A DNA stretch of 64,000 nt, taken from assembly GCA_020249265.1 (NCBI GenBank), contig JADCGA010000024.1, positions 1-64,000 on the forward strand. Reading direction: 5' to 3'. This document shows positions 13,749-21,664 of the stretch, piece after piece (the first letter of the stretch is position 1; the number at the start of each line of letters is the position of its first letter). A program made the position numbers and the translations under genes. Origin of the DNA: Roseomonas sp. (GTDB taxonomy: Bacteria; Pseudomonadota; Alphaproteobacteria; Acetobacterales; Acetobacteraceae). The notes beneath the pieces are model-generated. The model worked only from the letters and a program-made list of their open reading frames with translations. It did no database searches and was not told the DNA's origin.

Positions 13749-14987
13749 TCAGCTCCGGTAATTGCCATTGATGTCAATATAGCCATGCGTCAGATCGCAG
13801 GTCCAAACCGTGGATTTGCCCTTGCCAAGGCCGATATCCACGGTGATCTCTACCTCGCGCCCCTTCATGTGCTTAACGACGGGCGCTTCATCATAGCCAT
13901 CTACCACGCCGCCATCGCGCGCCATCCAGACGCCGCCGACATTGACGGAAAGCTTATCTCGATCCGCGGGCTCACCGGCCTTGCCGACGGCCATGACAAT
14001 GCGGCCCCAATTCGCATCTTCCCCGGCAATTGCGGTTTTCACCAAGGGCGAATTGGCGATGGACATGGCAATGCGATGCGCGGAACGCGCTGTGGTGGCA
14101 CCTGTCACGTTGATCTGGATCAGCTTCTGCGCGCCTTCACCATCACGCGCCACCATCAGCGCCAATTCCATCAGCACTTCATTCAGGGCGCGGGCGAAAT
14201 CCTTCAGCACCGCGCCACCTTCCGCCGGTACGCGCGGATGCTTCGCCGTGCCGGTCGCGAAAACCATCACGGTGTCGGAAGTGGAGGTATCAGAATCCAC
14301 CGTCACGCAATTGAAGGAACGATCAACGCCCTTCTTCAATAGCGCTTGCAAAGCGGCGGCGGGGATCTTTGCATCAGTCGCCAGGAAGGAAAGCATGGTC
14401 GCCATATCAGGCGCGATCATGCCGCTGCCCTTGGCGATGCCGGCAATGGTCACTTCCGCATCCCCAATGCGCGCCTTGCGGATGGCGCCTTTCGGGAAGG
14501 TATCGGTGGTCATGATGGCCTTCGCGGCACCCTGCCAATCACGTTCCGCAGCCGCTTCAAAAACGCGCGGCAGGGCGGCGATCAGCTTTTCGGTCGGCAG
14601 TTTTTCGCCAATCACGCCCGTGGAAGCCAGGAAGATTTCCTTGGGCTTGCAGCCGAGGATCGCGGCGGCAGCCTTGGCGGTTTCCTCACAGGTTTGGCGC
14701 CCGGCGCGGCCTGTGAACACGTTGGAATTACCGGCCGTTACCACCAGGCCACGCGCCTTGCCGCCGGGCAGGGCACCGCGGCACCAATCCACCGGCGCGC
14801 CGGGGCAGCGATTGCGGGTGAAAACCCCGGCCACTGTCGTCCCCGTAGGGAAGGCCATCACGGTCACATCATCGCGATCCTTGTAGCGAATCGCAGCGCG
14901 GCCCGAGGCAACGCGCACCCCCGGTACAGCCGGCATTTCTGGCAGCGGCAAAGCGAGTGGCGAGGTGGGGATATCATGTCCGGCCAT
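13749..14987 (-). CDS. argJ: Bifunctional ornithine acetyltransferase/N-acetylglutamate synthase
   Basis: ArgJ transfers the acetyl group from N-acetylornithine to glutamate, recycling it in arginine synthesis. The 412-residue precursor contains the self-cleavage site between Ala196 and Thr197 (KGSGMIAPDMATML); Thr197 becomes the nucleophile of the beta chain. Other family blocks are VVTAGNSNVFTG, IFLASTGVIGE and FNCVTVDSDTSTSDT, and it ends GYIDINGNYRS. The start at 14987 has GGAGAAAG upstream; the open frame extends 15 codons further, into a palindromic element, with no ribosome site. It lies downstream of a parvulin gene and upstream of the GNAT-Nudix gene. argC is about 5.7 kb away on the other strand. 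Confidence 0.95.
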   Translation of the reverse strand: MAGHDIPTSPLALPLPEMPAVPGVRVASGRAAIRYKDRDDVTVMAFPTGTTVAGVFTRNRCPGAPVDWCRGALPGGKARGLVVTAGNSNVFTGRAGRQTCEETAKAAAAILGCKPKEIFLASTGVIGEKLPTEKLIAALPRVFEAAAERDWQGAAKAIMTTDTFPKGAIRKARIGDAEVTIAGIAKGSGMIAPDMATMLSFLATDAKIPAAALQALLKKGVDRSFNCVTVDSDTSTSDTVMVFATGTAKHPRVPAEGGAVLKDFARALNEVLMELALMVARDGEGAQKLIQINVTGATTARSAHRIAMSIANSPLVKTAIAGEDANWGRIVMAVGKAGEPADRDKLSVNVGGVWMARDGGVVDGYDEAPVVKHMKGREVEITVDIGLGKGKSTVWTCDLTHGYIDINGNYRS

Positions 14988-16218: not shown

Positions 16219-18945
<2,727 letters not shown>

Positions 18946-19819: not shown

Positions 19820-19858
19820 CCGGCCAAGAAATACAAGGCTTGTCACGGACGGGCTTAG
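19820..19858 (+). repeat. Right, degenerate copy of the secA 3' end
   Basis: In frame, it reads AKKYKACHGRA followed by TAG, against [11 protein letters not shown] and TGA in secA. Differences are scattered and mostly third-position or synonymous-type, showing it was once coding. It is followed at once (19859-19876) by a half copy of the palindromic element seen at 15008. Confidence 0.75.
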
Positions 19859-19899: not shown

Positions 19900-19929
19900 T
19901 TGACAGACCTGCCAGCGGACCACTACCGT
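19900..19929 (+). promoter_or_regulatory. Probable sigma-70 promoter of the arginine leader
   Basis: TTGACA at 19900-19905 is a perfect -35 box. After 18 bases, TACCGT at 19924-19929 is a weak -10. Transcription would begin at about 19936-19937, at the A of the leader-peptide ATG, giving a leaderless message. No ribosome-binding site precedes that ATG, which agrees. Confidence 0.6.
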
Positions 19930-19936
19930 TTGTGTT

Positions 19937-20032
19937 ATGGATCAATCTTGCCTCCGCAACGCTAACCGACGCCGTCGCTGCTTCTCAGCGGCGGCTTCTG
20001 TGGCTGCGTGCAGACAAGCCCCTCCCCGGTGA
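19937..20032 (+). CDS. Arginine attenuator leader peptide, 31 residues
   Basis: The open frame MDQSCLRNANRRRRCFSAAA... ends at TGA 20030-20032. Codons 11-14 (19967-19978) are four consecutive Arg codons, all different (CGA CGC CGT CGC), with further Arg codons at 7, 26 and 31. It is followed by potential alternative RNA stems and a strong terminator, then a GNAT gene and argC. This is the arrangement of a ribosome-mediated attenuator sensing charged tRNA-Arg. The ATG is at the predicted transcription start, as for the leaderless trpL of Sinorhizobium. The peptide has no known family; the call rests on Arg codon clustering, position and the downstream terminator. Confidence 0.72.
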   Translation: MDQSCLRNANRRRRCFSAAASVAACRQAPPR

Positions 20033-20034
20033 GG
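19971..20034 (+). promoter_or_regulatory. Attenuator stem segments
   Basis: GCCGTCGCTG (19971-19980), inside the Arg codon run, can pair with CAGCGGCGGC (19986-19995): ten pairs with one G-U. A stalled ribosome on the Arg codons would block this stem. CCCCGGTGAGG (20024-20034), overlapping the leader stop, can pair with CCTCGGGG in the terminator's right arm with a small bulge, a candidate antiterminator. A ribosome at the stop codon would cover it and let the terminator form. The pairing was judged by eye. Confidence 0.5.
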
Positions 20035-20083
20035 CCCGCCCCGTAGCGGTCCACCGCCGAGGCGGCATCAGCCCGCATCTATG

Positions 20084-20115
20084 AACCCCCGCAGCCCCTG
20101 GCCTCGGGGGTTTTT
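20084..20115 (+). terminator. Rho-independent terminator of the arginine attenuator
   Basis: An eight-pair GC-rich stem (AACCCCCG at 20084-20091 with CGGGGGTT at 20105-20112) is followed by a T run (20111-20115, then CTTT). It lies 52 bases after the leader stop and 27 bases before the GNAT start, so it would stop transcription before the arg genes. Confidence 0.8.
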
Positions 20116-20141
20116 CTTTGCTCAGATCACAGGAGAACATT

Positions 20142-20690
20142 GTGCAGGACAGCAACTCCACCCACCCCGATTCTTCACAAGCATCTAAAGATGCCGTGCA
20201 CAAAACAGTGCGGCGCGCCACCATCGCTGATGCTGTGACCGTCCGCGAATTGACCCGCGCGGCCTACGCGAAGTGGGTGCCCGTCCTCGGGCGTGAGCCG
20301 CGGCCGATGACCGCCGACTACGACGCGGTACTGCGCGAACACCTGGTAGACTTGCTACAGGTGGGCGGCGAAGCCGTGGCGCTGATCGAAATGGCGCCAA
20401 AGGCTGACCACCTGCTGATCGTCAACGTCGCGGTCGCGCCAAACTACCAGGGAAAGGGCTATGGCCGCGCCATGATGGCGCATGCGGAGGAGGTCGCCCG
20501 ATCCCTTAGCCTCAGTGAAATGCGACTCTACACCAACGCGCTCTTTGCCGAGAATCTGCGCCTCTATAGCCGGCTTGGCTACCGGGTGGACCGCGAGGAG
20601 CAGCATCCGCAGTTCGGGGTTGCCGTGCATATGAGCAAGCGCCTCGAAGCCGCAGCCGACGAGCACTCCAGCAACAGGACATCACCATGA
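20142..20690 (+). CDS. GNAT-family N-acetyltransferase in the arginine-attenuated operon
   Basis: A 182-residue single-domain GNAT. The acetyl-CoA site is NVAVAPNYQGKGYGRAMMAH, followed by the C-terminal LYTNALFAENLRLYSRLGY typical of the fold. The GTG at 20142 follows CAGGAGA by six bases and was preferred to an upstream TTG in the terminator. It sits between the Arg attenuator and argC and overlaps argC by ATGA, so it should be made with argC when arginine is short. That makes an N-acetylglutamate-related role tempting, but it does not look like known short NAGS enzymes, so the substrate is open. Confidence 0.82.
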   Translation: MQDSNSTHPDSSQASKDAVHKTVRRATIADAVTVRELTRAAYAKWVPVLGREPRPMTADYDAVLREHLVDLLQVGGEAVALIEMAPKADHLLIVNVAVAPNYQGKGYGRAMMAHAEEVARSLSLSEMRLYTNALFAENLRLYSRLGYRVDREEQHPQFGVAVHMSKRLEAAADEHSSNRTSP

Positions 20691-21664
20691 GCATTCGTAT
20701 TGGCATTGTCGGGATCAGCGGTTTTGGCGGTGGCGAGGCGATGCGCCTGGTCGCGAACCACCCGTCTTTCGAACTGATCTACGCTGCCGGTGAAGGTAGT
20801 GTCGGCAGCCGCTTGGGGGACCGCTTCCCCGGTGCGCCAGCCAAGCTGGCCGAGTTGATGATCGAGAAATGGGACCCTGCGATGCTCCCGAAGCTCGATG
20901 TGCTGTTCGCCTCGCTGCCCACGGGCAGTTCAGCCGAGGCGCTGGCGCGTGTCCCCAAGGACGTGAAGATCGTCGATATCGGCGGCGATCACCGCTATGT
21001 TGAAGGTTGGGCCTATGGCCTGGCCGATATCTGGCCGGCGCAGATCGCGGGTCAGACCCGCATTGCCAATCCTGGCTGCTTCCCTGCAGCAACGCTTACT
21101 GCGCTGGCGCCACTACTGGCCGAAAAGCTGATCGAACCTGGCAACATCGTCATTGACGCCAAGACCGGTATCTCCGGCGCTGGTCGGGGCGGCGCCGACA
21201 GCAAATTCGGCTATGCCGAGAGCAACGAGAACCTGGTGCCCTATGGTCTGCTCAAGCACACCCACATGCCCGAGATGGCGAGGACGATTGAGCGGCTGAG
21301 CGGCAGTAGCGCCGCTGGGCTGGTGTTTACGCCACATCTGGTGCCAATGACCCGTGGCATACTTGCGACCATCTACTGCCGAGGTCGTGCTACCACGGAC
21401 CAGTGCTTGGACGCGGCGCGGCGCTACTATGCCGGGCGGGCCTTTGTTCGCGTGACCGACAAGCCACCGCAGACCAAATGGGCAACCGGGTCGAACCTTG
21501 CCTTCGTCAGCTACGCGGCGGACCCAGAGCGCAACTTGGTGATCGCAATGGGCGTGGTTGATAATCTCGGTAAGGGGGCGGCCGGCCAAGCGATGCAGAA
21601 CGCGAACCTGGTCTGCGGCCTGCCGGAAACTGCGGGGCTGGATAGTGTGCCTGTTTGGCCATGA
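20687..21664 (+). CDS. argC: N-acetyl-gamma-glutamyl-phosphate reductase
   Basis: ArgC reduces N-acetylglutamyl phosphate to the semialdehyde with NADPH, the third step of arginine synthesis. The 325-residue protein has a Rossmann start (IGIVGISGFGGGEAMRLV), the catalytic Cys131 in ANPGCFPAATLTAL, a substrate loop with GISGAGRGG, and the conserved late His in HLVPMTRGILATIY. The ATG overlaps the stop of the preceding GNAT gene. A LysY paralogue is a conceivable alternative, but the upstream Arg-codon leader favours ArgC. Codon choice is somewhat less GCG/CGC-biased than in flanking genes, so this operon may not be native. Confidence 0.9.
   Translation: MSIRIGIVGISGFGGGEAMRLVANHPSFELIYAAGEGSVGSRLGDRFPGAPAKLAELMIEKWDPAMLPKLDVLFASLPTGSSAEALARVPKDVKIVDIGGDHRYVEGWAYGLADIWPAQIAGQTRIANPGCFPAATLTALAPLLAEKLIEPGNIVIDAKTGISGAGRGGADSKFGYAESNENLVPYGLLKHTHMPEMARTIERLSGSSAAGLVFTPHLVPMTRGILATIYCRGRATTDQCLDAARRYYAGRAFVRVTDKPPQTKWATGSNLAFVSYAADPERNLVIAMGVVDNLGKGAAGQAMQNANLVCGLPETAGLDSVPVWP

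Follow-up and report, generated by a model that had tools for sequence, protein, structure and literature searches.

Attenuators that sense an amino acid through a leader peptide control the trp, his, leu, ilv, thr, and phe operons of Proteobacteria. To our knowledge, arginine is missing from the usual lists of biosynthetic genes under classical leader-peptide attenuation, and the control of arginine genes in Alphaproteobacteria is poorly known.

The closest described systems are compared here with the argC leader. Work on Actinobacteria attenuators names attenuators for His, Thr, and Phe, and T-boxes for Arg in other species (PMC1262725). The trpL leader of Sinorhizobium meliloti is, like the candidate leader described here, an alphaproteobacterial attenuator, and its RNA begins at the AUG of the leader ORF (PMC10117765, PMC7298713); it differs in its amino acid, tryptophan, and in its 14-aa peptide that is active in trans, whereas the peptide end of the argC leader is not conserved. 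In Salmonella, the upstream ORF orf34 of speF senses arginine through consecutive Arg codons (PMC6386406), as the argC leader may do, but it has a Shine-Dalgarno start, two consecutive Arg codons, a dependence on Rho and RNase G, and an ornithine decarboxylase target. The SpeFL core HIRRT..HIMM (DUF2618), as given in that paper, was absent by eye from the leader peptides of this study. The leader ORF rbfL of Staphylococcus aureus senses arginine limitation via Arg codons (PMC13009471), but its action is translational, with a ribosome-binding site blocked, and stalling lowers the expression of a biofilm regulator. The carA leaders resemble the argC leader in that RNA-level control has been proposed or reported ahead of a gene supplying arginine (and pyrimidine) synthesis, with a leader peptide in Pseudomonas aeruginosa and predicted attenuation in P. 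syringae (PMC4997734) and a motif in the beta-proteobacteria (PMC8632094); the gene and class are different, and a run of Arg codons is not part of the descriptions compared. Lastly, uORFC-8-2 of the Rhodobacterales is an alphaproteobacterial candidate for a ribosome-mediated attenuator, with tandem codons in its first stem (PMC8632094), but these are cysteine codons and the gene behind them is cysS.

The locus described here lies in a 64-kb stretch of Roseomonas sp. DNA, the whole of which was analyzed and is referred to as the window. We consider it probable (roughly 80%) that this locus controls a GNAT-family acetyltransferase gene and argC by ribosome-mediated transcription attenuation in response to arginine, through a leader ORF whose translation probably starts without a 5' leader; the leaderless start, the switch, and the arginine response are inferred. 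The parts of such an attenuator are present in order (Table 1), their spacing and sequence are conserved among relatives, and the Arg codons and their reading frame are under selection. A preliminary description of the sequence had reported the promoter, the 31-codon ORF, the Arg codons, the terminator, and the GNAT and argC genes, and direct reading found each of them where it had been placed. Like the classical attenuators, the locus joins a short ORF carrying a run of end-product codons to a protector, antiterminator, and terminator layout with a biosynthetic gene downstream. Unlike them, it would be specific for Arg, its candidate antiterminator is 7 bp long and nearly invariant, and the unit appears to have spread horizontally.

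Table 1. Features of the candidate arginine attenuator and the genes behind it (positions are those of the window)
Feature	Position	Strand	Basis or remark
Promoter -35, TTGACA	19900-19905	+	Sequence
Promoter -10, TACCGT, weak	19924-19929	+	Sequence; 18-nt spacer from -35
Leader ORF, 31 codons, MDQSCLRNANRRRRCFSAAASVAACRQAPPR	19937-20032	+	ATG at 19937, 7 nt past -10
Arg codons CGA CGC CGT CGC, leader codons 11-14	19967-19978	+	Regulatory role proposed
Protector stem (1:2), predicted	19950-20019	+	RNAalifold, 14 rows of the window's clade; Arg codons in 5' strand, GGCTGCG in 3' strand
Core hairpin of protector stem	19971-19980 with 19986-19995	+	96.5% of cells paired
GGCTGCG, candidate antiterminator 5' strand	20002-20008	+	Would pair with 20090-20096
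CGCAGCC, candidate antiterminator 3' strand	20090-20096	+	Overlaps terminator 5' arm
Intrinsic terminator, AACCCCCG...CGGGGGTTTTTCTTT	20084-20119	+	12 pairs
GNAT-family N-acetyltransferase gene, GTG start	20142-20690	+	PF00583, 51.8 bits; first gene past the terminator
argC, N-acetyl-gamma-glutamyl-phosphate reductase, TIGR01850 type	20687-21664	+	Overlaps GNAT stop

In the proposed mechanism, RNA polymerase would initiate on the A of the leader ATG or immediately beside it, with a ribosome following behind. With ample charged tRNA-Arg, the ribosome would pass the Arg codons and reach the stop; the protector stem would re-form and hide GGCTGCG, CGCAGCC would remain in the 5' arm of the terminator, and transcription would stop near 20116. 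With scarce charged tRNA-Arg, the ribosome would stall at codons 11-14 and cover the 5' strand of the protector stem, and the freed GGCTGCG would pair with CGCAGCC, block the terminator, and allow GNAT and argC to be transcribed.

The window ArgC scored 285.3 bits against a TIGR01850 cut-off of 233.6, the window GNAT was above the Pfam cut-offs, and argC, a gene of the arginine pathway, is a downstream gene that makes the amino acid repeated in the leader. Across both strands of the window, only this site combines an ATG-initiated ORF bearing three or more Arg codons in a row with an intrinsic terminator behind it. The identical strict test was positive upstream of 45 argC genes among the best 80 of 257 named loci, and it returned 0 hits in the 892,036 bases (both strands counted) flanking those 80 loci.

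Transcription of the leader appears to begin at its start codon. The distance from the start of TTGAC to the leader ATG is 36-38 nt in 73 of 75 loci (six of these being the same contig under two names), the exceptions being a locus that has lost both the ATG and the promoter (L042) and one that has lost the promoter (L094). A Shine-Dalgarno-like 4-mer is absent from the 14 nt 5' of the ATG in 62 of 74 loci; in the other 12, it begins 4-6 nt before the ATG, which is probably too close to work. This conserved spacing, combined with a mostly missing Shine-Dalgarno sequence, indicates that the leader ORF probably has a leaderless start that is conserved among relatives, as judged from sequence. 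A generic sigma-70 scan reported no promoter at the leader because the -10 box is too weak for its rules.

Selection on the leader ORF was followed in an alignment of 49 non-redundant leaders. From the 75 loci, the removal of six genus loci repeating a named contig and of L042 left 68, the removal of leaders >93% identical left 52, and L011, L014, and L017 were also not included. Of the 49 leaders, 48 retain three or more Arg codons in a row, the exception (L005) reading R-C-R-R; the longest run is five codons in 24 rows, four in 21, three in 3, and two in 1. Between the ATG and the end of the Arg run there are two gaps only, of 6 nt each, in two rows, and the 38 columns past the run hold ten gaps, nine of them 1 nt long and the other 3 nt. 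The nine 1-nt gaps belong to nine rows at three positions, and as some are shared in related species they represent fewer events than rows. The leader is thus an ORF with a run of end-product codons under frame selection, and a frame that is kept up to the Arg codons and drifts afterwards fits a cis-acting attenuator, not a working peptide. Peptide ends vary among relatives, and the window peptide is shorter than in most of them because of a 1-nt difference 3' of the Arg run.

Together, the Arg run and the promoter spacing support the arginine attenuator originally read from the window sequence. The same description held that loss of the Arg codons in relatives retaining the terminator would speak against attenuation; the run persists in all but one of the aligned leaders, but on an Agrobacterium Ti plasmid (L144) the terminator is kept and the Arg run is down to two adjacent codons. 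The shortening in L144 looks like an internal deletion. A decayed copy at L149:1501-1687 runs from mid-leader into a short argC-like fragment and is without a terminator.

A stem covering the Arg codons forms part of the fold of 19937-20120, and this fold exceeds 199 of 200 dinucleotide shuffles in stability (z -4.18). Across the 49 leaders, an intrinsic terminator stands between the leader ORF and the structural gene with 99.3% of its cells paired, compared to 96.5% for the core hairpin, both with little covariation. For the window's clade (14 rows), an extended stem is predicted to pair the Arg codons and an upstream CGCA.CGC with the stretch bearing GCTGCG, while for the other clade (35 rows) the predicted pairings are Arg codons:GCGUCG and GCGGC:GCUGC. 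As the stems differ in sequence, what the clades share is the layout, in which the Arg codons occupy the 5' strand and GCTGCG is hidden, such that a protector stem over the regulatory codons is predicted in both.

The GCTGCG motif (columns 67-72) is invariant at five of its six columns in the 49 rows, with C in 48 of 49 at the other, and it stays conserved across two reading frames (frame 0, 40 rows; frame 2, nine rows). Its complement CGCAGC is nearly invariant, including a C at column 171 that is unpaired in the predicted terminator and present in 49 of 49 rows. The candidate antiterminator GGCTGCG:CGCAGCC has 98.3% of its cells paired vs 27-58% in slid controls, and among the 49 leaders it showed no covariation because the pair hardly varies. 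Outside the common sequence, L108 keeps the antiterminator pairing through a G-U pair and, by eye and after the fact, L160 has a G-U pair and GTCGTG/CGCGAC replaces the pair in the far diverged L162 and L163.

Energy models did not reproduce the proposed switch. When the ribosome was masked at various positions in partition-function folding, no clean or consistent switch emerged; in RNA cut before the 3' arm, the mean antiterminator probability was 0.12 free, 0.13 and 0.17 stalled, and 0.20 with the ribosome on the stop. For the window, this probability was 0.21 in free RNA, fell to 0 with a stalled ribosome, and reached 0.66 with the ribosome on the stop, the opposite of the model. In the full RNA, the mean terminator probability was 0.95-0.98 in every ribosome scenario, that of the window fell to 0.40 when the ribosome stalled at the second Arg codon, and the terminator persisted in truncation folds of the window. 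It should be noted that these are equilibrium models, which do not include kinetic, co-transcriptional effects. The duplex energy of the leader segment with the terminator arm beat shuffles (p<=0.05) in only 6 of 57 leaders, and not in L160, L162, or L163, and was not counted in favor of the antiterminator; a 58th leader (L140) was excluded from the shuffles as the script found no terminator start.

ArgC of the window type shows 86-96% identity in the best 80 of the 257 named loci. Leader and terminator lie upstream in 57 of these 80, on which the motif search and the covariance model agree; in another 22 they were not detected, and for L081 upstream sequence is lacking. Carriers of the leader include Acetobacteraceae, Reyranellaceae, Bosea, and Methylobacterium, and in the genus group it is present in all 18 loci with enough upstream sequence. 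In class genomes, the covariance model with strict filters matched 3 of 385 (G000, G314, and G392), and in family genomes 14 of 150. A DNA pattern, GCGGNGGC..GCTGCG..CCGCAGCC, run on the 385 class genomes was rejected as too loose, with the reversed control also matching: of the 17 genomes it matched, only the same three were true by eye. Phage records held no match, and the seven stretches of viral contigs that matched a pattern had no relative among them. The argC copies without the leader (L037-L041, L045, L092, and others, from Bradyrhizobium, Cupriavidus, Polaromonas, and other taxa) have a different stretch of ~20 nt in common ahead of argC, and a TTGACA-like motif recurs farther upstream in some of them. 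Rhizobiales bacterium 2SD has two argC units (L065 and L068), with the leader in both.

Sequence comparison suggests that promoter, attenuator, and argC moved between genomes as one block. In 91 pairs of loci with the leader in both (drawn from 20 chosen loci), the median start of similarity is 260 nt upstream of argC (range 323 to 64), near the -35 box, and its end falls 3-60 nt past the last counted argC codon; the pairs listed are 82-94% identical in DNA, and most join different families or orders. For 87 pairs with the leader in one only, similarity mostly begins 11-22 nt before argC. Neighboring genes are unrelated, with no family in more than three of the 80 loci barring GNAT (five loci) and secA (four), as counted for ORFs >=90 aa without argC and the ORFs overlapping argC or the leader. 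In the argC tree, alpha- and betaproteobacterial loci intermingle; the tree has many weak forks and was used only for this mixing of orders and classes (L054 stands in its group A through a faulty pattern, although the peptide is type B). Matches to argC came from nine plasmid records and covered >=98% of its length in six; of these six, plasmids of Methylobacterium aquaticum and Roseomonas haemaphysalidis carry the leader and Arg run, the Agrobacterium Ti plasmid (L144) carries the shortened leader, and no leader was found with the argC of two Paracoccus plasmids and one Paraburkholderia plasmid. No terminal repeats around the unit were seen by eye. A glutathione S-transferase gene separates two copies of the secA 3' end in the window (18917-18945 and about 19825-19858), and in several relatives this end of secA directly precedes the leader.

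The leader is also found with other cargo. At L155 and L159, it directly precedes a GNAT gene whose product is 67% and 60% identical to the window GNAT, respectively, with no argC within the stretch examined. At L162 (1490-2530) and L163, a diverged leader with five Arg codons and a terminator is followed by a SnoaL-GNAT fusion (280 and 278 aa). In four loci, mostly Reyranella (L052, L059, L071, and L084), GNAT occurs just 3' of an argC without a leader. In the genus group, GNAT lies immediately 5' of argC in 12 of 19 loci, one of them clipped by a contig end. This repeated linkage of GNAT and argC suggests that the GNAT serves arginine synthesis, perhaps as an N-acetylglutamate synthase; sequence searches gave no confirmation of this. 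By eye, a SnoaL-like ORF apparently sits between leader and argC in L019, in the usual place of GNAT.

The host genome encodes a type-2 argC (TIGR01851) along with argJ, argB, argG, argH, and argF, each above its cut-off, which makes the window copy a second argC. No Arg-run ORF with terminator was found within about 1.5 kb on each side of the type-2 argC, argJ, argG, two argH-family genes, argB, or argF; a weak hairpin lies near the argF start. Within the genus group, ArgC of the window type is present in 20 of 35 genomes (one as a fragment at a contig end), and the remaining 15, some of which are incomplete assemblies, have weaker argC-like matches only. About 5 kb separate the argJ gene (13752-14930, - strand) from the argC unit, with secA in between, which places two arginine genes close together despite the patchy occurrence of the unit in the genus group.

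Several other explanations could account for parts of these observations. The Arg codons may serve as a ribosome sensor that acts through RNA stability or Rho access, with the hairpin a plain leaky terminator. There is precedent in Salmonella speF, where two consecutive Arg codons exert their effect by way of mRNA folding and decay, and where Rho-dependent termination is influenced by the ORF (PMC6386406), and the lack of a clean antiterminator in the energy models is in keeping with it. We nevertheless regard this as unlikely, because the nearly invariant terminator stem and the complementary pair that overlaps it fit classical attenuation better. Less likely again, and in our estimation very improbable, is that the leader is kept mainly for a trans-acting peptide or a terminated small RNA comparable to peTrpL and rnTrpL of S. 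meliloti. The leader RNA sequence is well conserved, and the S. meliloti papers describe a leaderless trpL with both a trans-acting peptide and a trans-acting RNA (PMC7298713, PMC10117765). Against this, peptide ends differ among relatives and the 1-nt gaps past the Arg run in 9 of 49 rows depart from the conserved peptide expected of peTrpL-like products, and the suggestion in the preliminary description that the free peptide might act in this way found no support.

At the far end, the locus could be a chance Arg-rich ORF in GC-rich DNA beside the terminator of the upstream gene, its conservation reflecting recent transfer. Arg codons are common in GC-rich DNA and the block is highly identical between lineages, but such combinations are missing from the flanking DNA, no frame-breaking gap occurs up to the Arg run, and a strongly diverged element with the Arg run recurs before GNAT and SnoaL-GNAT genes, which leaves this explanation with hardly any credibility. 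Ribosome-mediated attenuation by arginine remains the reading that we favor.

Attenuation as such is already known; what is new is that this attenuator is specific for arginine, has spread together with argC as one block, and has been recruited by GNAT genes. At gathering score, no Rfam family matched the window, L033, L036, L074, or L162, and the best permissive match at the site was RNaseP-T (E 0.47) on the other strand. No description of an arginine attenuator of argC was recognized in searches of an open-access library, a scope outside of which lie most subscription papers and all preprints; the accessible parts of PMC11109978 and PMC2965389 contain nothing on one.

More tentatively, the unit may be a portable arginine-starvation module, in which a leaderless Arg attenuator and argC have moved across orders and onto plasmids and the attenuator has been recruited by GNAT and SnoaL-GNAT genes, though we hold this to be somewhat less than an even chance. 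Should this be the case, it would constitute an arginine regulon not described before, in which the GNAT would probably supply the pathway with N-acetylglutamate. The unit also appears to be an example of a regulatory RNA travelling with its gene, and it ties an uncharacterized GNAT and a SnoaL-GNAT fusion to arginine supply. As a compact, conserved, and probably leaderless element, the proposed Arg attenuator is directly testable, and recipients of the module would gain a starvation-controlled extra capacity beside their ordinary arg genes, which lack the leader.
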